Origin: Cryobacterium fucosi
Lineage (GTDB): Bacteria > Actinomycetota > Actinomycetes > Actinomycetales > Microbacteriaceae
Direction: 5' to 3'
Assembly: GCF_004403515.1 (NCBI RefSeq)
Contig: NZ_SOHH01000061.1
Span: forward strand, 62,001 to 126,000
Length of the DNA: 64,000 bases
Part shown: positions 6,124 through 50,773 of the stretch, one piece after another
How positions within the stretch are numbered: the first letter of the stretch is position 1
How the letters are laid out: each line of letters begins with the position of its first letter
Notes under the pieces: generated by a model
What the model was told of the DNA's origin: nothing
Database searches by the model: none
What the model saw: only the letters and a program-made list of their open reading frames with translations
Translations under genes and position numbers: made by a program

Positions 6124-6607
6124 CGATTCGTGATCCCCGCGGACGTCCCTTACAAGTCACCACGGAATTTGCACGAATTTTCGCGGATTCCTGACGCCGG
6201 CCCAGAAAGAAACACCATGATCAGTCGCTTTCATCGCGAAGAGGGCAAGCGGTGGCCGATGATCACCCGTGCCCAGTGAAGAAGTGTCAAAATCTCCGAT
6301 CGCGTCTCCGACATTCATGCTGGCGGCAAGAATGAGATCGTCCGTCAGGACCCCGGCTTTCCGTGACCGCATCTTCTACCCTTCCGTGAAAGATCGACGC
6401 TCTGCAGCAACGCCCGTGTGTCGGGACCATCAATTTGCCTCCGGTTGAGCCCGCAAAGGTTCGTCTATGGCCACGGTAGAACCTGGGTGTTCGAGGCTGG
6501 ACGTTACGCGCAATGACTGCGACACTCGAGGCATGTTCCTTCACTAAGCGCGCCAATCCACGTCGACAAATCGACCTAGCCACTTTTCTGAATTGAGGAA
6601 CACCGCC
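6124..6607. other. intergenic stretch after the recombinase scar
   Basis: I see no gene here. Short frames exist on both strands but none has family features. The base composition is lower in G+C than the flanks, in keeping with accessory DNA. The last part holds the ribosome-binding site GAGGA (6595-6599) of the GNAT gene. Confidence 0.4.
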
Positions 6608-7099
6608 ATGACATTACATATCCGCGATGCCGCAACTGAGGACATCGATTTTCTCGCTGTGATGCTGCTGGAAGCAATCAACTGGCGCCAAGACCGGCAG
6701 ACTGCGACTCTGCAATCGATCATGAATAGCCCCGGCCTATGGCACTACCTCTCCGATTGGAAACGAGGCTCAGATTTCGGTTTCGTGGCACACGAGGCAG
6801 AGGACAAGCCGCTCGGTGCGGCGTGGGCGAGGTTCATGACCGCCGAAGATCCCGGATATGGATTCGTTGACGAGGGTATCCCCGAACTGGGCATGGGCGT
6901 AGTGAGCTCTCATCGAGGCCAGGGCGTAGGCCGCGTTCTTCTGGAGCAGACCATACGGGCCTCAGCGGATCGTGGCCTCCAGGGACTGAGCTTGAGCGTC
7001 GAAGACGACAACGAACGAGCCCGCGCTCTGTACTTGAGCAACGGCTTCGTCGTCGCGGGACGGGTCGGCAATTCGGACACGATGGTTCTAAGGTTTTGA
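6608..7099 (+). CDS. GNAT family N-acetyltransferase
   Basis: A 163-residue protein with the GNAT fold. It begins MTLHIRDAATEDIDFLAVML, and the acetyl-CoA motif A is VVSSHRGQGVGRVLLEQTI (about residues 97-115), followed by GLSLSVEDDNERARALYLSN and GFVVAGR, the usual motif B end. The ATG at 6608 is chosen because GAGGA lies 8 bases upstream; a TTG at 6593 is less likely. The substrate is unknown. It stands alone between accessory scars. Confidence 0.85.
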   Translation: MTLHIRDAATEDIDFLAVMLLEAINWRQDRQTATLQSIMNSPGLWHYLSDWKRGSDFGFVAHEAEDKPLGAAWARFMTAEDPGYGFVDEGIPELGMGVVSSHRGQGVGRVLLEQTIRASADRGLQGLSLSVEDDNERARALYLSNGFVVAGRVGNSDTMVLRF

Positions 7100-7181
7100 C
7101 CCGCTGAAGGTTCCCCTTCCGGGTGCCTCTGCTGGTATTCCCCTCGATCCCGTTGACGATTTGTTTTGGCCAACGCTGGAC

Positions 7182-7607
7182 CTACTGGTCCTTGATGCGG
7201 ATGTTCTCGCCTGCTTTGCTCCAGCCCTCTCGATTGGGCATGCCATCCTGCACAATCATGACTTCAAAGCCTGCCGACTTCATTGTCGTCATGTTCGAGC
7301 CGCACGCTCCTTGCCACTCCGCGGCTGCTCTGTAGGCGAGCAGGCAGACAGGCAAGTCGCGCCCGCGTGCCAAGTACAGCCGCGTGTCGTCAACGACACC
7401 CACAAATCGCACGCTGTCAGTGTCGAAACCGTCCAATGCATAGTCCGGAAGGCCACTCGGGATGGCGTCCTCTGCCCTGGGCGCTCTCTGCAAGTCGGAG
7501 AAGCCATCGGCAGGTGAACAGCCCGTCATGGTGAGTACCGTCACCGACGCTGCGACCAACCACACAAAAGTCCACTTGTCGGCCACTTCTCTCCCTGATT
7601 CAGGCAA
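7182..7607 (-). CDS. putative lipoprotein, function unknown
   Basis: A 141-residue protein (134 if the GTG at 7586 is used, which has GGGAGAGA just upstream). The N-terminus is a lipoprotein signal: basic start, hydrophobic stretch WLVAASVTVLTM and a lipobox ending TMTGC. The mature part is small, includes two Cys (VCLLAY and GACGSN) that could form a disulfide, and ends RIKDQ. I do not recognise a family. It is followed on the same strand, upstream, by another lipoprotein gene, so the two may be paired surface proteins. Confidence 0.6.
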   Translation of the reverse strand: MPESGREVADKWTFVWLVAASVTVLTMTGCSPADGFSDLQRAPRAEDAIPSGLPDYALDGFDTDSVRFVGVVDDTRLYLARGRDLPVCLLAYRAAAEWQGACGSNMTTMKSAGFEVMIVQDGMPNREGWSKAGENIRIKDQ

Positions 7608-7654
7608 ACATATCGTTCTACGAAATCGGTCCGCAAGGGTTCGGCTGGCGGCGT

Positions 7655-8458
7655 TCAGTCGGACGTGGTTGCGTCTGGCCGTGTCAATCCCTCATATGGT
7701 TCGATCCGTTTGAGGAAGGCGTCTCGGTCCCCGATACCCACAGTCGTGGCTCCATACGAGATGTTGATCGAACGGGCGTTCCACCCAGTCTCGACGCCGA
7801 TCTCGCCTGCCGCTTTGCCGGATTCGTCCCGGTCGATATTGATCAGGGACACTGCCACCCACTGCGAATCTCCGTTGGCGGTGCCAAACCACTGCCATTG
7901 CTCGTCCGGGTTCTCCGAACCTGACCGCTCAGCGTTCTCAGCGGCGCGTTCGGAATCGAGACTGTCAAGCTTCAACGATCCCAGGCCGTGCGCTTGGGTC
8001 ACGTCGGTGATGATCTCGACGATGCGATTCCAGTCTTCTGCGCGCGAGGGGATGCTCAAGCTTTCGCGTGCGGCCGAGTTGAACGTGACGTACAGCGATC
8101 TACCGCCGTACCCGTTGCCCTCCTGAGGGTAGAACTCGCCCTCGCCAACATGCCCGTCAGTTGGGCCGTCTTCCCAGGCGAGCGCGAATTCATCGCTGAG
8201 GCGAGCCTCGATCTCCCCCAGAATCCTCGCCGACACCGCCCTGGTTTCTTCGGCAGGGGGAGCTCGAAGGACATCGCCCGCATCCATGCCGGCGTGCCCC
8301 GGATAGGCCGCCCAGTCGACAGTGACCGCTTCCCCACTGTCGGCCCGGTACGTTGTCTTCGGCGAGGAGGCGCAGGAAGTCAGCATGATTGCGATGGACA
8401 GCGCCCCGATCATCGCGGCGCCTGCACGCGCTTTCAAGGCTTGTCGATCCACGGTCAC
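7655..8458 (-). CDS. putative lipoprotein, function unknown
   Basis: A 267-residue secreted lipoprotein. The signal runs from a basic start (VDRQALKARAG) through MIGALSIAIM to the lipobox LTSC. The mature protein is acidic and contains WAAYPGHAGMDAGDVLRAPP and a region SLYVTFNSAARESLSIPSR. I know no family for it, though it resembles small actinobacterial lipoproteins of the LppA type. The GTG at 8458 (or a second at 8452) gives a normal signal n-region; the frame continues far upstream but that part shows no coding features and overlaps other sequence. Confidence 0.6.
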   Translation of the reverse strand: MTVDRQALKARAGAAMIGALSIAIMLTSCASSPKTTYRADSGEAVTVDWAAYPGHAGMDAGDVLRAPPAEETRAVSARILGEIEARLSDEFALAWEDGPTDGHVGEGEFYPQEGNGYGGRSLYVTFNSAARESLSIPSRAEDWNRIVEIITDVTQAHGLGSLKLDSLDSERAAENAERSGSENPDEQWQWFGTANGDSQWVAVSLINIDRDESGKAAGEIGVETGWNARSINISYGATTVGIGDRDAFLKRIEPYEGLTRPDATTSD

Positions 8459-9288: not shown

Positions 9289-9316
9289 ATGTACATTCAG
9301 CGCACTCAGATGTACA
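9289..9316. promoter_or_regulatory. toxin-antitoxin autoregulatory operator (two TGTACA sites)
   Basis: TGTACA occurs at 9290-9295 (inside the palindrome ATGTACAT) and again at 9311-9316, each preceded by GA and followed by A/T and TTCA. The centres are 21 bases apart, two helical turns, and the second site ends 8 bases before the antitoxin ATG. This fits cooperative binding of the antitoxin to its own promoter. Confidence 0.55.
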
Positions 9317-9324
9317 ATTCATTC

Positions 9325-9573
9325 ATGGCTATCGTCAGCGTTGCAGACGCGCGCAATCACCTTTCCACCGTCATCGCTCGCGCGAAGAGCGAAGCCGTAT
9401 TCATCGAGCGTCGCGGTCAGCGCGCCGCCGTGGTCGTCAGCCCCGAGCAGTATGAGCGGATGCTAGAGGCGCTCGAAGACGCCGAAGACGTCGCCGCGTT
9501 CGACGAGGCGATGGCAGAGGAAGGCCCCAACATCCCCTGGGCTCAGGTAAAGGCCGATCTGGGCTGGACGTGA
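9325..9573 (+). CDS. type II antitoxin, Phd/YefM family
   Basis: An 82-residue antitoxin. The N-terminus MAIVSVADARNHLSTVIARA is the DNA-binding Phd/YefM fold, followed by VFIERRGQRAAVVVSPEQYE, the family's signature strand pair. The acidic C-terminus (ALEDAEDVAAFDEAMAEE) would wrap the toxin. The ATG at 9325 is chosen over an upstream frame at 9199 because the conserved domain starts there and the operator lies directly before it. Its stop overlaps the toxin start in GTGA. Confidence 0.9.
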   Translation: MAIVSVADARNHLSTVIARAKSEAVFIERRGQRAAVVVSPEQYERMLEALEDAEDVAAFDEAMAEEGPNIPWAQVKADLGWT

Positions 9574-9827
9574 CCTACAAGATCGAGTTGCGACCTGCCG
9601 CAGTTCGTGCGTTGAGGCGAATTGATCACCAGGATCGCGACCGCATTCGCGGGGCGATCGCGCTCCTTGGGGAGGATCCACGGCCACCAGGCGCCAAAGC
9701 GCTCCAGGGGCGCTCTGGCCTCCGAGTTCGCATCGGGCACTACCGCATCATCTACACCGTCGACGACGATGTCCTCGTCGTCGCAGTGATCACACTCGGT
9801 CACCGCCGCGACGTCTACGACCGCTGA
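9570..9827 (+). CDS. type II toxin, RelE/ParE family
   Basis: An 85-residue RelE-like toxin that would cut mRNA on the ribosome. It shows the family pattern YKIELRPAAVRALRRIDHQD, LQGRSGLRVRIGHYRIIYTV and ITLGHRRDVYDR, with the arginines and terminal tyrosine common in active RelE proteins. It starts at a GTG (9570) overlapping the antitoxin stop by four bases, the translational coupling typical of these modules. Confidence 0.9.
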   Translation: MTYKIELRPAAVRALRRIDHQDRDRIRGAIALLGEDPRPPGAKALQGRSGLRVRIGHYRIIYTVDDDVLVVAVITLGHRRDVYDR

Positions 9828-9854
9828 AGGCCTCGCGCATTAGCGGGTGGTCCA

Positions 9855-10290
9855 ATGGGTGACAAGGCGATCTATGTAGAGATCGAGGTCAGAGCCGACG
9901 TTGACCGAGTATGGCAACTCACGCAAGACCCGGCTCAGCATCCGCGCTGGGATCTGCGTTTCAGCACCATTACCCCCTTCGCCGATCTTCCGACCGGCGG
10001 CAACCGTTTCGTCTACCAGCGCCGAATGCTCCTCCACACGATCACGGGAACAGGCACCTCTCTGGGAGAGCGACAGCGACCCGACGGAACGAGCACCTCG
10101 GCGCTTCGGTTCACGACGGGCGACAGGCTGGTCATGCGCCGTTTGATTGGTTGGATGACGGCGTGGAGCTTTGACCGTCTGCGAATCTGGGCTGAAACGT
10201 GCACGCCACCGGAGGGGTGGCCACTGGCATCCGTGCTTGCGCTCTGGCGACCGAACCGACCCCAAGCCTCGGGATACCGAGTTCGGTCAA
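9855..10290 (+). pseudogene. SRPBCC-family gene with internal deletion
   Basis: The frame starts MGDKAIYVEIEVRADVDRVW and follows a START-like SRPBCC domain (LTQDPAQHPRWDLRFSTITP, then GTGTSLGERQRPDG). After TTGDRL (about residue 95) it jumps directly to RLIGWMTAWSFDRLRIWAE, skipping about 40 residues that family members have between these points (the GYWRYVP...TGYDY part). The frame is kept, so a shortened protein could be made, but half of the binding pocket is gone. Similarity ends near 10290; the open frame continues to 10511 into the antisense of the Doc gene with no meaning. Confidence 0.6.
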
Positions 10291-10328
10291 GCACTCAAGT
10301 CGAACCGAAACCGCGCCCCGGCCTCAGG

Positions 10329-10697
10329 TCAGAGTCGCCTCGAGTGCGTCTCAATCCAGTCCACGATGGCTATGCGCTCAACCCGGTGGTCGGCCACGGA
10401 ACGCACAAACGCGTCGCCGTCGGCCGCGCTGCCGGCGGCAAGGTGATGCCCGTTGAGGGCAAGGAAACCTTTTGTGACTATCCAGGCCAGGCGTTTGTTG
10501 CCATCGGATAGCGGATGATCGTTGTTGATGGCGATGAGCAAAGCGGCGGCCTTGTCATGGAGGCCGGGGTAGACCTCCTCGCCGAACACAGGCAGCGGCG
10601 CGGCGAGAGCAGACAGTAGAAGGTTCCGGCCGCGGACATGAAAACCCGCCAACGCGATGAGGTCCTCAACGTCGGCGGGTTCCAGATACTCCGTCAC
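10329..10697 (-). CDS. doc: Doc/Fic family toxin
   Basis: A 122-residue protein of the Doc branch of the Fic family. The active-site loop is HPLSDGNKRLAW, matching the Doc pattern HxFx(D)GNKR; Doc toxins phosphorylate elongation factor Tu and stop translation. The rest (YLEPADVEDLIALAG..., HDKAAALLIAINNDHPLSDG) is of normal length for Doc. The GTG at 10697 overlaps the stop of the antitoxin gene by four bases. Its partner here is a ribbon-helix-helix protein, not the classical Phd. Confidence 0.88.
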   Translation of the reverse strand: MTEYLEPADVEDLIALAGFHVRGRNLLLSALAAPLPVFGEEVYPGLHDKAAALLIAINNDHPLSDGNKRLAWIVTKGFLALNGHHLAAGSAADGDAFVRSVADHRVERIAIVDWIETHSRRL

Positions 10698-33065: not shown

Positions 33066-34576
33066 TGGAGCCGATCAGCCGCCGGACCGCCGTCACCCTC
33101 GGCGGCCTGGGGCTGGCCGGCACCGCGATCGGCGGCGCCGGCCTGCTCTGGACCGCTCAGCCCGGCTTCACCCCGTTCGGCGAGCCGGTCGCCCGGTCGG
33201 CCTTCAGGGCGAAATCCGGCGAGCCGCTGCGCCAGCCGACCGAGCAGAGGAGTCGTGACGGCGTGCTCGAGGTGACATTGGATGCCTCCCCCGGCCGAAT
33301 GCGGATCGGCGGCCGGAACGCCACGACCCTCGGCTACAACGGCGGCCTCCCCGGCCCGACGCTGCGGGTGCGGGCCGGGGACCGGCTCGCGGTGACCCTG
33401 CGCAACGGTCTCACCGACCCCACCAACCTTCACACCCACGGGCTGCACGTCTCTCCAGAGGGCAACAGTGACAACCCGTTCGTTGTGGTCGAACCGGGCG
33501 ACTCGTTCGACTACGAGTTCCGGCTGCCGGCCGACCACCCGCCCGGTCTCTACTGGTACCACCCGCACCACCACGGAGTCGCGGCCGGCCAGGTCTTCGG
33601 CGGGCTGTACGGCGCGATCGTCGTCGACGACCCTCTGCCGATCCCGGTCACCCGCGAACGCGTACTGGTGATCTCCGACCTCACCCTGGACTCCGCCGGC
33701 AATCTGACCCGGTCGACCGTGGCCGAACGGATGCACGGCCGAGAGGGTGAGCTGGTGCTGGTGAATGGCCAGCTGAAGCCGTCGGTGGACATCCGTTCGG
33801 GCGAACGCGAACGCTGGCGAATAGTGAACGCCTGCGCCTCGCGCTACCTGCGACTCCGCCTCGACGGGCAGGAGTTGCACCTTCTCGGTCTGGACTCCGG
33901 CCGGTTCGCCAAACCGGAGAAGGTGGACGAGGTGATGCTGGCACCCGGCAATCGAGCCGATCTGCTCGTCACCGCGAGTGAGGGCAGCACTGCCCTGCGC
34001 GCCGTTCCCTACGATCGCGGCAGCGACGGCATGATGGGCGGGGGTCGCGGATCCTCCCTCGCCGAGGTCACCCTCGCCACGGTGACTGTCGAGGGTGCGG
34101 ATGCCGGTGCCGGCGACACGGCCGACTCGCTGCCGGCAATCCCCCGCCAGGCCACACCAGTGGACCTCCGCGGTGCCACCGTCACGGCGCGCCGCGAATT
34201 CGTCTTCGAGATGGGCATGGGCGGCATGATGGGCGGCGGGGGCATGGGCTTCACCATCAACGGCCGCGAATTCGACGGCGGCCGGGTCGACACCACCGTG
34301 CAGGGCGGCAGCGTCGAGGAATGGACCCTGACCAACGCCAGCCAGATGGACCACCCCGTGCACCTGCACGTGTGGCCGATGCAGGTCGTCGAACGGGTAG
34401 GCCGGGCCGTGGACTCCGTGCTCTGGCAGGACGTCGTCAACGTGCCGGCCCGCTCGGCCGTGCGGGTGCGGGTCGCCTTCACCGGGTTCACCGGCAAGAC
34501 CGTGTACCACTGCCACATCCTCGACCACGAAGACAACGGCATGATGGGCGTCATCGACGCCCGCGCCGCAAACTGA
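33065..34576 (+). CDS. multicopper oxidase, Tat-exported
   Basis: A 503-residue secreted oxidase. The N-terminus has a twin-arginine signal (ISRRTAVTLGGLGLAGTA). Copper-binding motifs are in order: LHTHGLHV, WYHPHHHG, HPVHLHVWPM and HCHILDHEDNGMMG, giving type 1, 2 and 3 sites. A Met/Gly-rich loop (GMGGMMGGGGMGF) near residue 385 and another (GMMGGGRG) near 325 may bind extra Cu(I). Enzymes like this oxidise Cu(I) or phenols in the cell envelope. It is coupled to the SHOCT gene by overlap of TAG/GTG. Confidence 0.93.
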   Translation: MEPISRRTAVTLGGLGLAGTAIGGAGLLWTAQPGFTPFGEPVARSAFRAKSGEPLRQPTEQRSRDGVLEVTLDASPGRMRIGGRNATTLGYNGGLPGPTLRVRAGDRLAVTLRNGLTDPTNLHTHGLHVSPEGNSDNPFVVVEPGDSFDYEFRLPADHPPGLYWYHPHHHGVAAGQVFGGLYGAIVVDDPLPIPVTRERVLVISDLTLDSAGNLTRSTVAERMHGREGELVLVNGQLKPSVDIRSGERERWRIVNACASRYLRLRLDGQELHLLGLDSGRFAKPEKVDEVMLAPGNRADLLVTASEGSTALRAVPYDRGSDGMMGGGRGSSLAEVTLATVTVEGADAGAGDTADSLPAIPRQATPVDLRGATVTARREFVFEMGMGGMMGGGGMGFTINGREFDGGRVDTTVQGGSVEEWTLTNASQMDHPVHLHVWPMQVVERVGRAVDSVLWQDVVNVPARSAVRVRVAFTGFTGKTVYHCHILDHEDNGMMGVIDARAAN

Positions 34577-44483: not shown

Positions 44484-45495
44484 CGTCGAACCCCTCGCCG
44501 GTCAGCGCCACGAACCGTTCCTCGAGGCTGGCGCCCACCACCGAGAACCCGCGCACGCGCACCCCGTCGGCGACGAGGGCCGCGACGATCGTTTCGGGGG
44601 CCGCTGCGCCGTCGGCCAGGGGCGCGCTGAGCAGGCCGTCGGCGTTCCGGTCGCCCGGTACCCCGAACCGGTCCGCGTCGGTCCGGCCGGCACCGACCCG
44701 GCCGGCATCGACGCTGTCGGCCACGAGCCCGAGCCCGGCGAGCACCCGGCGTGCGTCGGCGACATCGGGGGTGCGCACCCGCACATGCGCCTCGCCCACC
44801 CGGCGCAGTTCGTCGAGCGTGCCCTGCGCCACCAGGCTGCCGGCGCTCATCACGGCCGCGTGCGTGCACATCTGCTCAACCTCGGCCAGCAGGTGGCTGG
44901 AGACGAAAACCGTGGTGCCTTCGGCGGCGAGCGAACGCACCAGGCTGCGCACCTCGCGGGTGCCCTGCGGGTCCAGACCGTTCGTCGGCTCGTCGAGCAC
45001 GAGCAGCTCGCGCGGCACCAGCAGGGCGTTCGCGATGCCGAGACGCTGCTTCATGCCGAGCGAGTAGGCGCGCACCTTCTTACCGGCCGCGTGGGTGAGG
45101 CCGACCCGCTCGAGGGCCAGGTGCACGCGGGCGGAACGGGTGGCCGAGGACGCGCCGGGGTCGGCGGTGTCGAGCCGGCGCAGGTTGGCCGCGCCGGAGA
45201 GGAACGGGTAGAAGGCCGGCCCCTCGACCAGGGCGCCGACCCGCGGCAGCACGTCGCGGAGCCGGCCGGGCATCTCCTGGCCGAGCACCGCGATGTCGCC
45301 GCTGGTGGCGGTGGCGAGCCCGAGCAGCATCCGGATCGAGGTGGTCTTGCCTGACCCGTTGGGGCCGAGGAAGCCGAAGACCGCGCCGCGGGGTACCGCG
45401 AGGTCGACGCCGTCGACGGCCGTCTGATGGCCGAACCGCTTGGTCAGCCCCCGGGTCTCGATCGCCAGTTCGACGGACGGGGTCGCGGCGGTCAA
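44473..45495 (-). CDS. ABC transporter ATP-binding protein
   Basis: A 340-residue ATPase of the ABC-2 exporter class. Walker A is LGPNGSGKTTSIRMLLGLAT (about residue 44), the signature YSLGMKQRLGIANALL, Walker B ELLVLDEPTNGLDPQGTREV. An insert rich in Asp/Gly/Ala follows GLGLVADSVDAGRVGAG near residue 260, and the C-terminus is an extra domain as in many bacitracin/antibiotic exporters. The TTG at 45495 overlaps the stop of the upstream lipoprotein-like gene (TTGA). Confidence 0.9.
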   Translation of the reverse strand: MTAATPSVELAIETRGLTKRFGHQTAVDGVDLAVPRGAVFGFLGPNGSGKTTSIRMLLGLATATSGDIAVLGQEMPGRLRDVLPRVGALVEGPAFYPFLSGAANLRRLDTADPGASSATRSARVHLALERVGLTHAAGKKVRAYSLGMKQRLGIANALLVPRELLVLDEPTNGLDPQGTREVRSLVRSLAAEGTTVFVSSHLLAEVEQMCTHAAVMSAGSLVAQGTLDELRRVGEAHVRVRTPDVADARRVLAGLGLVADSVDAGRVGAGRTDADRFGVPGDRNADGLLSAPLADGAAAPETIVAALVADGVRVRGFSVVGASLEERFVALTGEGFDVVQ

Positions 45496-46649
45496 CCCCC
45501 GACGGCCGCGGTCTGCAGCCGCGCCGCCGGAACCGACCCGGCGAACACCCGGCCGTCGTCGGTGACCAGCACGTTGACCAGGGCGGTCGACAGCAGCCGG
45601 CCTCCGTCAACGCTCTCGGTCACCTGCGCGAGCAGCGGGTCGGCGAGGACGTCGGCCGGCACCGTGCCGGCCGGCAACTCGACGACGGATGCCCAGCCGG
45701 TCCCGTCGACGCTCACGCCGGGGAGCATGCCCCCGCCGTTCTTCAACTTCTCGTCCTTAAGCTGTTCCACGAGCTTCGTCGCTTCGTCTTCGGTGGCGGG
45801 CATCTTCCCGCCGGTCAGCGACATGTCGTGCATGGCCTTGTCGTGCATGGCGGATGCATCCGGCAATGACTTTTCTTCGACCTTCGCGCCGGCCGGCGGG
45901 GTGAAGTCGAACAGGTCGGCATTCGGCGCCTCGAGGGAGAGCTTGGAGAAGGCGAGCGAGAAGGCCGGGGCGGACTGGCCACGGGCCTGCACCTCGACCC
46001 GGAGCGGCATCCCGGTCTCGGAGTCGACCGCGATCGACACCTCGCCGACCAGGGTTTCGTCGGTGCGGGGCGTGAGCCGCAGCTCGTAGGCCGTGCGGCC
46101 GGCCACCCGGGTGTCCTTCCCGACCGTGACGGCGGTGCTCGGGTCGATCGCCGCGAGCATCCGTTCGGCAAGTTGCGCGGGCGTCTGCTGGGAGCCGTCG
46201 GCCTCCGGGCGCGGCATGCCGGTCGTGTCCGGAAGGGTGACGTGCAGGGCGGTGTTGTCCTTGGAGTTGTACATCCAGACGTCGGAGGCGTTGCGCACGA
46301 GGTCGCGTTCCGCGAGCCGGTCCATGACCTGCACACGGATGTTGTCGGGTCCGTTGAGATAGACCCGCGCCGTGTGCGAACCGGTGAGCAGTTCGAGGGC
46401 GGAGGAGGCGGAGGCGTCCGCACCGGACCCGGTGCTGGGCAGCGCGGGGAGGCCGAGTTCGGAGGTCTGTTCGATCGTGCCGGAGAGCGCCTTCACGTTG
46501 CTGTCGCCGATCAGGGCGAGCACCTGAGCCGGGGTCTTGTCGGGCAGATCCACGGCGGCGCCGGCCTGGAGCGGCACCGTCAGCACGCCGACGATGACGA
46601 CGGCGGGGACGACCGCCACGGGGAGCCAGCTGCGCAAACGGAGGGTCAT
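45492..46649 (-). CDS. LolA-like/DUF2092 secreted protein of an ABC operon
   Basis: A 385-residue exported protein. The signal is SWLPVAVVPAVVIVGVLTVP. The mature part follows the LolA/DUF2092 fold: IGDSNVKALSGTIEQTSELG, DVWMYNSKDNTALHVTLPDT, YELRLTPRTDETLVGEVSIA, SETGMPLRVEVQARG, LFDFTPPAGAKVEE. It would bind a lipid or hydrophobic ligand. AAGGAGG precedes the ATG at 46649. It leads the three-gene operon with the ATPase and permease. Confidence 0.82.
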   Translation of the reverse strand: MTLRLRSWLPVAVVPAVVIVGVLTVPLQAGAAVDLPDKTPAQVLALIGDSNVKALSGTIEQTSELGLPALPSTGSGADASASSALELLTGSHTARVYLNGPDNIRVQVMDRLAERDLVRNASDVWMYNSKDNTALHVTLPDTTGMPRPEADGSQQTPAQLAERMLAAIDPSTAVTVGKDTRVAGRTAYELRLTPRTDETLVGEVSIAVDSETGMPLRVEVQARGQSAPAFSLAFSKLSLEAPNADLFDFTPPAGAKVEEKSLPDASAMHDKAMHDMSLTGGKMPATEDEATKLVEQLKDEKLKNGGGMLPGVSVDGTGWASVVELPAGTVPADVLADPLLAQVTESVDGGRLLSTALVNVLVTDDGRVFAGSVPAARLQTAAVGG

Positions 46650-46914
46650 GACAGCCTCCTTCGACTGACGCGATTCATACTGCGATCCTACGTCCGGCAT
46701 CCGTGAACCACACCCCTCCCGGGGACCGGATGCAGGCTAACTCGGCGAACTCCCAGCGCCCGGTGCCCGCCGTGCCCGCCGTGCCCGCGCGCTGCGCAAG
46801 CCAGCGACGAGCGCGCCACCTGCGCCGCTTCGCTCCTGGTGCGCCTGTAGCGCAGCGGCGCAGCAGGCGCGGTCGGCGTCGCGCGGGCACGCCATCGGCG
46901 CTTGGGCGACCAGG

Positions 46915-48003
46915 TCAGTCCGGCCGCCGGGCCGCGGCCTTCTCGCAGCATCCGGCCTGGCAGGCGTCACGCCAGGGACCGAGCGTGGTCAACGCCTTTC
47001 TCACTGGATCCGGGTCGGCTGGCAGGCGCTCCATCAGCAGGTCGACGAGACCGGCCACGAACGCCGGGTGGAGACTCGGCGTGGAAACCCGGAGGAAGGC
47101 CAGGCCGAGAGCGGCGGCCGTGGCGGCGGCCTCGGTGTCGAGGTCCCAGATCACCTCCATGTGGTCGGAGATGAAGCCGAGCGGCACGACCACGACGGCT
47201 GACCTGCCCGCGGCGGCGAGGTCGGCGATGGCGTCGTTGACGTCCGGCTCCAGCCAGGGCATGCCAGGCGGGCCGGAGCGGGATTGAAAAGCGAGTGACC
47301 AGGCCGGGGAAGCGCCCGGCGCCAGTGCGGCCATGATCACCTCGGCCACGGCACGGTGCTGGGCCACGTAGGCGCCGCCGGGACCCCAGTCGCGGTCCCG
47401 TGGGCCGCTCGCGGCGGCATCCGTCGTCGGGATCGAATGGGTCGTGAAGAGAATGTGCGTGTCGACGGATGCGATCTGCCGCCCGGCGAGGTCGGCGAGG
47501 GCAGCCCGGAGCCCGTCGATGAAGGGCGTGACGAAACCGGGGTGGTCGAAGTAGGGTCGCACCGCGTCGAGGGCCACCCGGCCCGCGAGCCCGGTGTGAT
47601 CGAGGGCCTGGGCCAGGTCTTCGCGGTACTGCCTACAGCTCGAGTAGGAGCTGTAGGCGCTGGTCGTGAGCGCGAGCATCCGAGTGTGCCCGGCCGCTGC
47701 TGCCTCGGTGACGGTGTCGCCGAGGTACGGCGTCCAGTTGCGGTTGCCCCAGTAGACCGGCAAGTCGATGCCGCGACCGGCGAGTTCGGTCTCAAGCGCC
47801 GCTTTCAGGGCCCGGTTCTGCGCGTTGACCGGGCTGATCCCGCCGCGGGCCCGGTAGTGCGTCGCCACGGCCTCGAGCCTGGCCTCCGGGATGCCGCGCC
47901 CGCGGGTGACGTTGCGGAGGAAAGGGATCACGTCGTCCTGGCCCTCCGGCCCGCCGAACCCGAGCAGCAGCACGGCGTCATAGGCCGGCGTGGCGGGCTC
48001 CAC
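46915..48003 (-). CDS. cpfC: coproporphyrin/protoporphyrin ferrochelatase
   Basis: A 362-residue chelatase. The core is YDAVLLLGFGGPEGQDDVIP, GRGIPEARLEAVATHYRARG, SAYSSYSSCRQYREDLAQAL, FTTHSIPTTD (catalytic His) and WLEPDVNDAIADLAAAGRSA. Cysteines at 123, 348, 352 and 353 (SSCRQY, DACQAGCC) match the [2Fe-2S] pattern of actinobacterial enzymes. In actinobacteria this protein inserts iron into coproporphyrin III. The GTG at 48003 lies one base after the stop of the radical SAM gene. A zinc-free spacer of about 265 bases follows (46650-46914) with a GTGCCCGCC triple repeat and no gene. Confidence 0.93.
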   Translation of the reverse strand: MEPATPAYDAVLLLGFGGPEGQDDVIPFLRNVTRGRGIPEARLEAVATHYRARGGISPVNAQNRALKAALETELAGRGIDLPVYWGNRNWTPYLGDTVTEAAAAGHTRMLALTTSAYSSYSSCRQYREDLAQALDHTGLAGRVALDAVRPYFDHPGFVTPFIDGLRAALADLAGRQIASVDTHILFTTHSIPTTDAAASGPRDRDWGPGGAYVAQHRAVAEVIMAALAPGASPAWSLAFQSRSGPPGMPWLEPDVNDAIADLAAAGRSAVVVVPLGFISDHMEVIWDLDTEAAATAAALGLAFLRVSTPSLHPAFVAGLVDLLMERLPADPDPVRKALTTLGPWRDACQAGCCEKAAARRPD

Positions 48004-48004
48004 G

Positions 48005-49207
48005 TCAGGCGCCGGCACCGAGCGCCGCCGGCTGGTACGGGCAGGCCGGGTCCTCGCCGAGCGGGTCGCCGCTGTCGGCGTAGGCCCTGGCCCGGGATCC
48101 GCCGCACAGGTCGGCGTATTCGCAGCTGCCGCAGCGCCCGGTGAACTCGGTGGCCCGGATCTGTTTGAGCAGGGTGTTGTCCCGGTAGATCTCCGCGAGC
48201 GGTGTGGTGAGCACGTTGCCGAGGCCGAGCGGCAGGAACCCGGCCGGGTAGACCTCCCCGTCATAGGCGACGAACACGATTCCCTTGCCGTCGCGGGTGG
48301 AGGCCGTCTGCGCCCTGGGCAGCCCGATCGGCGGCCCCATCAGGGTTTCGAGCCGTTCGGTCAGCGCGAGGTAGCGCGGCGTGGCCGGTGCGGGGTCGCC
48401 GGCCCGGCGGCGGGCGACCACCCGTCGGAAGAACGGCGCCTCGACCGTGCGCACGATGAAGCCGTGCTGGGACGCGTCGAAGAGGAACTGGCAGATCTCC
48501 TCGTGCTCGAGGGCGGAGACGGCCTCGGTGGACACCCCGCGCCCCACCTGCACGAGGAAGAAGACCTCCCAGATCGACGCGCCCGCGCCCGCGATGAGGG
48601 CAGCGACATCCGCCAGCTCGTCGACGTTGGCGCGCATCACGGTGGTGTTCACCTGCACGGTCAGCCCGGCAGCGGAGAGGGCACGGATGGCGCGCACGGT
48701 GTCGTCGAAGTGGCCGGGAATGCCGCGCACGCCCTCGTGGGTGGCTGCGATCGCGCCGTCGAGGCTGATCGAGACGGCCTTGACCCCGCTGGCGACGATC
48801 TTCTCGATCATCTCGGCGGTCAGGGTGGGCGTCACCGACGGGGAGAGCGCGGTCGGCAGGCCGAGTCCGGTGGCGTAGTCGACGAGTTCGAACAGGTCGG
48901 GCCGCATCAGGCAGTCGCCGCCGGTGAGCACGAGGATCGGGTAGGGGCGGCCGAAACCGGCGACCTGGTCGATCAGGTTCTTGCCCTGCTCGGTGGTGAG
49001 TTCACCCGGCAGGGCCTGCATGGTCGCGCTGGCGCGGCAGTGTCGGCAAGCGAGCGCGCAGGCGCGGGTGGTCTCCCAGAAGACGAGCATGGGCCGCTGC
49101 GCGTAGTCCGGGCCCGGCCCGCGTGTCCTGGTCGGCACGCTGGGGAGCACTCCGGCCTGGGCGACGGTGTTCATGACGTCGCCGGGCATGACCTCGCCGA
49201 CGCTCAC
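48005..49207 (-). CDS. radical SAM/SPASM enzyme in the heme operon, AhbD/NirJ-like
   Basis: A 400-residue protein. The radical SAM cluster is CALACRHC (Cys50, 54, 57), with ILVLTGGDCLMRPDL and SISLDGAIAATHEGVRG after it. The C-terminal SPASM region reads CGSCEYADLCGGSRARAYAD and EDPACPY, giving Cys359, 362, 368 and 389; Ser371 stands where AhbD-type enzymes often have Cys. The GGSRARAYA motif places it with the TIGR04053/AhbD group, whose known relatives remove propionate carboxyls from Fe-coproporphyrin. It starts at a GTG overlapping the cgoX stop (GTGA) and ends one base before cpfC. Heme synthesis is the likely role. Confidence 0.82.
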   Translation of the reverse strand: MSVGEVMPGDVMNTVAQAGVLPSVPTRTRGPGPDYAQRPMLVFWETTRACALACRHCRASATMQALPGELTTEQGKNLIDQVAGFGRPYPILVLTGGDCLMRPDLFELVDYATGLGLPTALSPSVTPTLTAEMIEKIVASGVKAVSISLDGAIAATHEGVRGIPGHFDDTVRAIRALSAAGLTVQVNTTVMRANVDELADVAALIAGAGASIWEVFFLVQVGRGVSTEAVSALEHEEICQFLFDASQHGFIVRTVEAPFFRRVVARRRAGDPAPATPRYLALTERLETLMGPPIGLPRAQTASTRDGKGIVFVAYDGEVYPAGFLPLGLGNVLTTPLAEIYRDNTLLKQIRATEFTGRCGSCEYADLCGGSRARAYADSGDPLGEDPACPYQPAALGAGA

Positions 49208-50625
49208 GGTGCCACCTCGGTGAGGGGGCGGTCGCCGGCCAGGAGGGCGGCGAGCGAGTCCGCCGTGCGTTCGGCGTCGACGATGCAGCTGGCCAGGCCG
49301 ACGCCGCGATACGACGACCCGGTGAGCCGGATGCCGGGAAGGGCGAGCAGCGCCACCGTCGCGGCGTCGAGGCGCGCCTGGTGGCCGACCACGTATTGCG
49401 GCATCCCCTGGGGCCAGCGTTCGATGTGCCGTTCGATCGGGCGCTGGGTCAGCCCCATCGCCTCGACCAGCTCGCCGTGGACCAGGTCGACGAGGGTGTC
49501 GTCGTCCAGGTCGAGCCAACGGTTGTCGCCGCGCCGGCCGACCATGCAGCGGATCAGCACGAGCTCATCGTTGGCGAGGTGCGGCCACTTCGCGCTCGAC
49601 CAGGTGCAGCCGACCACGAGCTTGTCCTCGACCGGCGGCACCAGGAATCCGGTCCCGTCCAGTTCGGCGGGGGCCGAGGAGCGCGGGTAGGCGAGGCAGA
49701 CGGTGGCGACGTCCACGTAGGGCACGTCGGCCAGTGCTGCTGCCAGGTCGGGCGACTCCGCACCGAGGAGATCGGCGGCCACGCCGGCCGACGTGGCGAG
49801 CACGACGGCATCCGCCTCGATGCTCGTGCCGTCGGCGAGGGCGACCGTGTAGCCGGCGCCGGCGCGGGTGATCAGCGAGGCCGGGCTCCCGAGGCGGATG
49901 TCGTCGCCCCCCAGCCGGGCCGCGAGGGCGTCGATCAGCGTGCCCAGTCCTCCTCGAAGGGTGACCAGGGCGGCGGCGGTCTTCGGCGGGGCTGCGCGGC
50001 GGCGTGCGCCGAGGGCGAGGTACAGGCTGCGGTTGGTGCGGGCGAGGCCCTCGATGTCGGGGGCTGTGCTGTGGGCGCTGAGTTCGTCGGCGCGGCCGGC
50101 GTGCACTCCGCCGAGCAGCGGGTCCACCAGCCGGTCGAACACCTCCGCACCCATCCGCGGGCGCACCAGCTCGGCGATGGTGGGGTCGGGCGGCTGCGAG
50201 CCTCGGCGGCGGGGCAGCACGATGTCCAGGGCCGCCCTGGCCACCCCGGCGGGGGAAAGGAGCCCGCTCCAGAGCAGGGGCAGCAACCGGTCGGGAATGC
50301 CGAACAGGGTGCCGGCCGGGAGCCGGCGCAGCTTCCCGCGCGACCAGATCCGTGCGCCGCCCGCGTTGGGTGCGACCACGAGGTCGCCGAGGCCGAGGTC
50401 GCCGATGAGTGTCGCGACGACGGGGGAACGCACCATCAGGGCGTCCGGTCCGACATCGACGGCGTGCCCGCCGAACGGCACCGTGGCGATCTTCCCGCCG
50501 AGTCGCGGAGCGCCTTCGACAAGGGTGACCTGCACCCCGTCCCCGAGTCGGCGATGCAGATAGTGTGCACTTGTCAATCCGCTGATTCCGCCGCCGACGA
50601 TGACAATCCGTGGTCGAGAGTGCAC
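49204..50625 (-). CDS. cgoX: coproporphyrinogen/protoporphyrinogen oxidase
   Basis: A 473-residue FAD enzyme. The Rossmann motif is IVIVGGGISGLTSAHYLHRR (about residue 8), followed by VTLVEGAPRLGGKIATVPFG, VDVGPDALMVR and, near the end, SSYRGVGLASCIVDAERTAD, all typical of HemY/CgoX. It oxidises coproporphyrinogen III to coproporphyrin III in gram-positive bacteria. The GTG at 50625 has GGAGG 11 bases upstream. It is the first gene of the heme operon, coupled to the radical SAM gene. Confidence 0.93.
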   Translation of the reverse strand: MHSRPRIVIVGGGISGLTSAHYLHRRLGDGVQVTLVEGAPRLGGKIATVPFGGHAVDVGPDALMVRSPVVATLIGDLGLGDLVVAPNAGGARIWSRGKLRRLPAGTLFGIPDRLLPLLWSGLLSPAGVARAALDIVLPRRRGSQPPDPTIAELVRPRMGAEVFDRLVDPLLGGVHAGRADELSAHSTAPDIEGLARTNRSLYLALGARRRAAPPKTAAALVTLRGGLGTLIDALAARLGGDDIRLGSPASLITRAGAGYTVALADGTSIEADAVVLATSAGVAADLLGAESPDLAAALADVPYVDVATVCLAYPRSSAPAELDGTGFLVPPVEDKLVVGCTWSSAKWPHLANDELVLIRCMVGRRGDNRWLDLDDDTLVDLVHGELVEAMGLTQRPIERHIERWPQGMPQYVVGHQARLDAATVALLALPGIRLTGSSYRGVGLASCIVDAERTADSLAALLAGDRPLTEVAP

Positions 50626-50773
50626 TGTATCTTCCTCCAATTGCCCGGAACCGGCGCAGCCGACACCCTGTGGCAATCCTTGTTATCTCAGATCCTACGG
50701 CGGTCGATGCCCCGGAAATCGCGGCAGACGGGCGGCGGCACGACGGAAAACGTCGGTTTGCACGTCTGTGCAT

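Follow-up and report, generated by a model that had tools for sequence, protein, structure and literature searches.

A probable second coproporphyrin-dependent end-branch in Cryobacterium fucosi with a candidate oxygen-independent coproheme decarboxylase

Here we describe a three-gene operon of Cryobacterium fucosi, a cold-loving soil bacterium, that encodes a radical SAM/SPASM enzyme of family TIGR04053 between an oxidase and a ferrochelatase. The operon is probably (at a rough probability of 0.72) a second coproporphyrin-dependent end-branch of heme synthesis, in which the TIGR04053 enzyme would serve as an oxygen-independent coproheme decarboxylase beside ChdC at low oxygen. Such a radical enzyme, which most likely completes heme with neither oxygen nor peroxide, would help to account for heme synthesis by actinobacteria under anoxia. 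A passage on gram-positive heme synthesis without oxygen refers to a “yet unknown oxygen-independent enzyme” standing in for ChdC (PMC10965808), and work on the actinobacterial terminal heme steps is called for in a passage of PMC6620371. The operon offers named genes for such a ChdC substitute, for these terminal steps, and for enzymes that carry the AuxII cluster only. The general idea is already known: passages of earlier papers state that ahbD is co-localised with hemY/hemH/hemQ (PMC10548856, citing Bali 2011 and Dailey 2015) and name AhbD as an anaerobic alternative to ChdC (PMC12670364, a review). Within the open-licence literature searched, we found neither the name TIGR04053 nor an experimental assignment of an actinobacterial radical SAM enzyme to the coproheme step.

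Results

The window, that is, the whole stretch of 64,000 nucleotides analysed, spans C113:62001-126000 of the source genome (G000), a 3.4-Mb assembly in 122 contigs. Its minus strand carries cgoX2 (49204..50625), a coproporphyrinogen/protoporphyrinogen oxidase paralog, followed by the gene for the 400-aa radical SAM/SPASM protein P0001 (48005..49207), our proposed decarboxylase, and by cpfC2 (46915..48003), a ferrochelatase with a Cys-rich C-terminus that is also present in cpfC1, the second ferrochelatase gene described below. The cgoX2 stop TGA (49206-49204) overlaps the radical SAM start GTG (49207-49205) as GTGA, and one base separates the radical SAM stop (48007-48005) from the cpfC2 GTG at 48003. 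Together with family matches for all three genes, namely TIGR00562 (proto_IX_ox) for cgoX2 (259.9 bits, cut-off 97.85), ferrochelatase NF000689 for cpfC2 (448.2 bits, cut-off 408) and TIGR04053 for P0001, this spacing bears out the tight cgoX, radical SAM/SPASM, cpfC operon read in a preliminary description of the sequence. The longest cgoX2 ORF extends to 50676; the GTG at 50625 was chosen as start, and a GGAGG-type ribosome site precedes it in most aligned species. Alignment of the upstream regions of the window and 11 Cryobacterium loci (L059 yielded no match and L065 was left out) brought out a conserved block at 50671..50700 on the minus strand, GTAGGATC...AACAAGGATTGCC, within which several regions vary and which is probably the promoter and 5′ leader. 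No oxygen-regulator box upstream of cgoX2 was identified in these regions, only the promoter-like block. Beyond the 3′ end of cpfC2, the minus strand also carries a gene for a LolA/RseB-like protein (45492-46700) with weak family matches only.

P0001 shares 95-96% identity with proteins of Cryobacterium sp. HLT2-28 and MP_M3, and the whole operon, with cgoX upstream and cpfC downstream, is present in 13/13 named Cryobacterium loci encoding the radical SAM protein; since these loci were found via that protein, they are uninformative on Cryobacterium without it. In L059, cgoX is truncated near the contig start. In L065 (Cryobacterium breve ERMR7:08), the cgoX2 and cpfC2 matches (6129-7721 and 9298-10442) each fall into two segments, as if split by frameshifts or sequence errors. 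The sole other genome of the genus in our sample, G195, has narG yet no TIGR04053 match at E 1e-120, so the trait is patchy within the genus.

P0001 scores 501 bits against TIGR04053 (cut-off 395) in a full-length match (2-366). AhbD (TIGR04545) is the best other family, at 300 bits against a cut-off of 500, a cut-off that no protein of the source genome exceeds; NirJ2 follows with 220 bits, and the NirJ/AhbC models TIGR04051 and TIGR04546 with 166 bits each (cut-offs 515.45 and 650). In a quick, midpoint-rooted tree of 105 rows (121 frames, 16 of them excluded as near copies or fragment), P0001 falls among the GGSR-bearing rows, which form one clade of 76/76 TIGR04053 members (SH-aLRT 100). 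The neighbouring clade holds 14 GGCR AhbD-like rows (support 98), the branch joining the two has a support of 92, and 14 NirJ/AhbC-like rows group apart (support 99); one further GGCR row, L086 (Calditrichota), lies outside the AhbD-like group. Three GGCR rows checked against the AhbD model gave 571.7, 531.3 and 453.7 bits, the first two over the cut-off of 500. On the TIGR04053 score, the AhbD score below cut-off and the clade beside the GGCR rows, P0001 is classed as a TIGR04053 member that resembles AhbD and is not AhbD by NCBI's model. NirJ/AhbC membership was ruled out by the low scores and the separate tree group. An AlphaFold model of P0001 (pLDDT 86.1) is confident outside residues 1-31 and 395-400 but does not point to a substrate; SkfB, BlsE and PqqE rank first among solved structures in Foldseek, and AhbD is absent among the 50 matches listed, so that the fold ranking says little.

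All residues pointed out beforehand are present in P0001: the radical SAM CX3CX2C (C50, C54, C57), the AuxII cysteines C359, C362, C368 and C389, S371, and GGSRARAYA. The protein thus has both motifs described as common to 39 AhbDs, CX3CX2C and a C-terminal CX2CX5CX20-38C; the full SPASM motif with AuxI is ascribed to a subset of AhbDs only (passages of PMC10452713). That full AuxI motif is missing here, as cysteines of the AhbD at L084, which are spaced like M. barkeri C223, C256, C274, C312, C315, C321 and C324 (PMC10452713, in part), align with E256, T304, A322 and S371 of P0001. The claim that Ser371 replaces an AhbD-type Cys proved right and extends across the family: this position is Ser in 76/76 TIGR04053 tree rows and Cys in 15/15 AhbD-like rows. 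Haloarchaeal members keep the Ser, the AuxII cysteines are kept in 76/76 TIGR04053 rows, and E256 in 65/76. Ser371 marks the loss of the AuxI cluster and is a family-wide trait of TIGR04053. AhbDs of non-methanogenic archaea are said to have Glu and Ser at three AuxI positions, and AuxII-only AhbDs are stated to be biochemically unstudied (both in passages of PMC10452713).

The absence of chdC from the window holds, as the sole PF06778 match of the source genome falls outside it, whereas the title claim of the preliminary description, a coproheme-to-heme step without ChdC, fails. This match (C113:31367-31909; E 1.3e-62) lies about 77 kb from the operon on the same contig and scores 320.2 bits with NF042928 HemQ_actino (cut-off 235); judged by gene content, it is the intact chdC elsewhere in the genome that the same description had named as evidence against its proposal. 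The gene belongs to a locus (L006) with hemL, hemB, hemD, hemC, cpfC1, chdC, cgoX1 and hemE on one strand, in which cpfC1 adjoins chdC and unrelated genes stand between chdC and cgoX1; the gene names are backed by NCBIfam and Pfam, that of cpfC1 by PF00762. With chdC, cgoX1 and cpfC1 on the same contig, the window operon is a second set, a second end-branch beside the chdC cluster. What stands of the earlier proposal is the putative conversion of coproheme to heme by an AhbD-like radical enzyme, a reaction well supported by family, tree, gene context and a published H. volcanii deletion; what falls is its ChdC-less setting in this genome.

The duplicated genes differ in apparent age. cpfC2 looks like a close duplicate of cpfC1, with 66% identity along 354 residues, whereas cgoX2, only 29% identical to cgoX1, represents an old, separate lineage. 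With TIGR00562, cgoX1 is barely over the cut-off of 97.85 (103.6 bits, versus 259.9 for cgoX2), so that in Cryobacterium cgoX1 is the odd copy and cgoX2 the typical one, and either may do the daily work. The cgoX1 gene (L006 13415-14965) is divergent and shares a long branch with the G263 copy. In a careful tree of 35 rows, 21/22 CgoX proteins encoded next to the radical SAM gene fall into one clade (99/97), together with a single chdC-side copy (G201); L040, the one outlier, is part of a cluster shared with chdC and groups outside the clade. Excluded from this tree were near-copy Cryobacterium rows, the fragments L070 and L180, the long-branched L083, and L176, L178 and L194 as near copies or duplicates. 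Wherever both copies of a genome are in the tree, the radical SAM-adjacent one is inside the clade and the chdC-side one outside (8/8: G000, G020, G190, G257, G263, G655, G659, G660). A quick tree gave a 24-row clade (support 98) with 22/23 radical SAM-adjacent rows and 2 chdC-side rows; a cgoX match was found in 14/19 chdC regions fetched. This co-travel of the radical SAM enzyme and CgoX, seen in sequence trees, is the most novel point of the present analysis.

CgoX enzymes are users of O2. A passage of PMC6620371 reports that cgoX of S. coelicolor partly replaces that of S. aureus with air and not without air, so that it would make sense to keep a separate CgoX for anoxic conditions. We hold it tentatively, at somewhat less than even odds, that CgoX2 and TIGR04053 constitute a co-inherited, dedicated oxygen-independent end-branch of actinobacterial coproporphyrin-dependent heme synthesis in which CgoX2, a distinct subfamily of the oxidase, uses a non-O2 acceptor, and that the radical SAM enzyme fully displaced ChdC in some lineages.

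To see P0001 in a wider context, we examined the neighbours of TIGR04053 genes across genomes. In a class sample of 296 genomes, TIGR04053 was found at E 1e-120 in 22 genomes (24 genes). Heme genes (cgoX or hemE) lie beside 11/24 of these genes, narG/narH/nirK-like genes near 9/24 (fetched stretch up to 20 kb), and neither kind near 4/24 (L041, L048, L051, L052). chdC is present in 22/22 of the genomes, which indicates redundancy and no forced role for the radical SAM enzyme. In a phylum sample, 32/396 genomes have TIGR04053 over cut-off; the 27 of these that are new contribute loci with heme genes in 5 cases, an AhbC/NirJ-like gene in 6 and neither in 16, as judged with Cryobacterium queries. 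The 35 named loci comprise the 13 Cryobacterium loci with the whole operon and 22 others, of which 12 adjoin a heme or AhbC-like gene and 10 do not. The most telling loci are those of G302, L079 and L081. In G302, hemE, cpfC, cgoX, chdC and the radical SAM gene stand in a row on one strand. In two Thermoproteota loci (L079 and L081, Pyrodictiaceae), a TIGR04053 gene of the window's subclade is followed by an ahbAB fusion (AhbB half over cut-off, AhbA half below) and an AhbC-like gene (below its cut-offs), and neither PF06778 nor PF00762 matched anything in these genomes; by this context, the TIGR04053 gene would be their AhbD. Two plasmid loci have other surroundings. On a Deinococcus ficus plasmid (L093 7953-16163), TIGR04053 adjoins a cytochrome P450 and a siroheme/sulfite reduction cluster, not heme or nitrate genes, and on a Halobaculum plasmid (L092 5787-9068), a TIGR04347 pseudo-SAM/SPASM gene and a candidate RiPP gene of the radical SAM-partnered kind adjoin the TIGR04053 gene and halocyanin.

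PF06778 occurs in 27/32 phylum genomes with TIGR04053 over cut-off versus 183/364 others (P = 1.2e-4, a value that ignores kinship). It is absent, also at E 0.01, from five TIGR04053 genomes (G304, G420, G440, G363 and G414), all of them incomplete (89-96%). Ferrochelatase is present in G304, G420 and G440 (in G440 only partial, at a contig end) and was not found in G363 and G414; hemN was over cut-off in 0/15 genomes checked. The radical SAM gene of G304 has cgoX on one side and hemE-cpfC on the other, and an ATPase-like frame interrupts the row. The same families, f47 and f55, also include genomes in which chdC is present and TIGR04053 is not listed, a mix suggestive of exchange. Group f90 has an AhbD-type enzyme, which scores 453.7 bits for AhbD in G557 and starts the run rSAM-hemE-cpfC-cgoX in G566, and four f90 genomes checked have no PF06778 match; by its genes, this group would have the hybrid pathway first imagined for the window, except that its enzyme is of the GGCR type. 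Arrangements without ChdC are found outside the source genome, in the incomplete genomes G304, G420 and G440 and in the f90 group.

A link to low oxygen comes from nitrate respiration genes and from archaeal relatives. narG is present in 18/22 class genomes with TIGR04053 versus 85/274 without (Fisher P = 3.6e-6, ignoring kinship), and absent from the remaining 4/22. The source genome has a second TIGR04053 gene over cut-off (C90:37247-38344; L007 9690-10889). Its neighbours are a nitrite-reductase-like multicopper gene (167.9 bits with TIGR02376, under the cut-off of 296.3), a gene for a NorB-type nitric oxide reductase, narH and narG (1587.8 bits, over cut-off). This gene is likely a denitrification-linked copy, and given its neighbours, the anaerobic job might be its own instead of the operon copy's. 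Window positions 33263-33832 weakly match (29%, 65 bits) the L007 nitrite-reductase-like multicopper protein. Two Antarctic Cryobacterium isolates are reported to have given N2O in an acetylene-block test (PMC9339992, in part).

On Thermus plasmids, TIGR04053 occurs in denitrification clusters (nitrite reductase; a cbb3-type subunit read as NorB), and on haloarchaeal plasmids its members likewise lie within denitrification clusters. According to passages of PMC5746218, deletion of H. volcanii ahbD (HVO_2144) slowed growth when cells denitrified or respired DMSO and only then, and heme restored the DMSO growth of the mutant and, only with added DMSO, part of its denitrifying growth. Several observations bear on the family of HVO_2144. 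H. volcanii is over the TIGR04053 cut-off among our control genomes, and AhbD is over its cut-off in 1/3 control genomes that exceed that of TIGR04053, presumably Methanosarcina. The H. larsenii member scores 501.6 bits for TIGR04053 versus 342.9 for AhbD, and its neighbours (halocyanin, a NorB-like gene, a multicopper gene) are those of the H. volcanii ahbD locus as described in part of PMC5746218. On these control counts and this synteny, HVO_2144 very probably belongs to TIGR04053.

Discussion

In the route we propose, CgoX2 would oxidize coproporphyrinogen III to coproporphyrin III, CpfC2 would insert iron, and the TIGR04053 enzyme would decarboxylate the two coproheme propionates of rings A and B, leaving vinyl groups and hence heme b; the reaction would use SAM and neither O2 nor H2O2. 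By analogy with AhbD (passages of PMC11306076), a 5'-deoxyadenosyl radical would abstract a propionate beta hydrogen, CO2 would leave, and the spare electron would pass to the porphyrin iron or a cluster, the cycle being run twice for rings A and B. The enzyme would then relate to ChdC as HemN does to HemF, that is, as a low-oxygen counterpart coexisting with the chdC cluster. Gene content, family, tree position, synteny and the pattern of kept and lost cysteines are observed here; we infer the substrate, the product, a use at low oxygen by Cryobacterium and the way in which CgoX1 and CgoX2 share the work.

Several other readings were weighed. An unlikely one, which survives best, is that the operon makes another iron porphyrin, such as monovinyl heme, or clears coproheme. 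The lost AuxI ligands (E256, A322, S371) fit this product, as does an M. barkeri AhbD variant without AuxI that performed the first decarboxylation and hardly the second (PMC10452713, in part); in subclade A, to which the window's enzyme belongs, the variable position of TxEAP(H/F) is Phe rather than the His of many others. The Ser-bearing haloarchaeal members, however, very probably enable anaerobic growth, a role in which external heme can stand in for them (PMC5746218, in part), and Pyrodictiaceae members of subclade A occupy the AhbD slot. Less probable still is an enzyme acting like HemN on coproporphyrinogen III to give protoporphyrinogen, in which case CgoX2 and CpfC2 would function as PgoX and PpfC: the cgoX and ferrochelatase families alone cannot tell copro- from proto- substrates, but the sequence kin of P0001 is AhbD, not HemN, and the slot in Ahb operons comes after coproheme. 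It is scarcely credible that the enzyme is the organism's only coproheme-to-heme step. The tight operon with cgoX and cpfC and the chdC-free window speak for it, as do G304, G420 and G440 with TIGR04053, ferrochelatase and neither ChdC nor hemN over cut-off, but the chdC gene by cpfC1, near cgoX1 and hemE, rules out ChdC replacement in the source organism on gene content. Finally, a SPASM peptide maturase or other non-tetrapyrrole enzyme that is here by chance, a reading to which the SPASM domain and the nearest solved folds lend themselves, can be set aside as the maturase models score far lower (StsB 131 and mycofactocin 128.6 versus 501) and the heme context recurs.

The favoured reading, a second end-branch with a low-oxygen coproheme decarboxylase, has parallels in known systems. 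P0001 shares with AhbD the CX3CX2C and the AuxII CX2CX5C-X20-C, and its clade neighbours that of AhbD; in L079 and L081, TIGR04053 holds the AhbD slot beside ahbAB and the AhbC-like gene. Unlike AhbD, P0001 stays at 300 of the 500 bits required, has GGS instead of GGC and no AuxI Cys, and its gene is flanked by the coproporphyrin-pathway genes cgoX and cpfC, in a genome that encodes ChdC as well. The H. volcanii AhbD (HVO_2144), very probably a TIGR04053 protein too, likewise coexists with a ChdC (PitA) and sits beside denitrification genes (PMC5746218, in part); it differs in being archaeal and fed from siroheme by the Ahb route, and passages of the same paper report no PgoX (HemY) or CpfC gene for H. 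volcanii, whereas the window operon has cgoX2 and cpfC2. ChdC/HemQ (PF06778) would perform the same overall reaction as proposed for P0001, coproheme to heme b, but has an unrelated fold, is peroxide-dependent and is encoded separately in the source genome. CgoN/YtpQ, the DUF1444 oxygen-independent coproporphyrinogen oxidase of Bacillaceae, is a proposed answer to the anaerobic gap of the same pathway one step earlier (PMC10965808, in part), where the operon studied here has CgoX2 of the HemY type.
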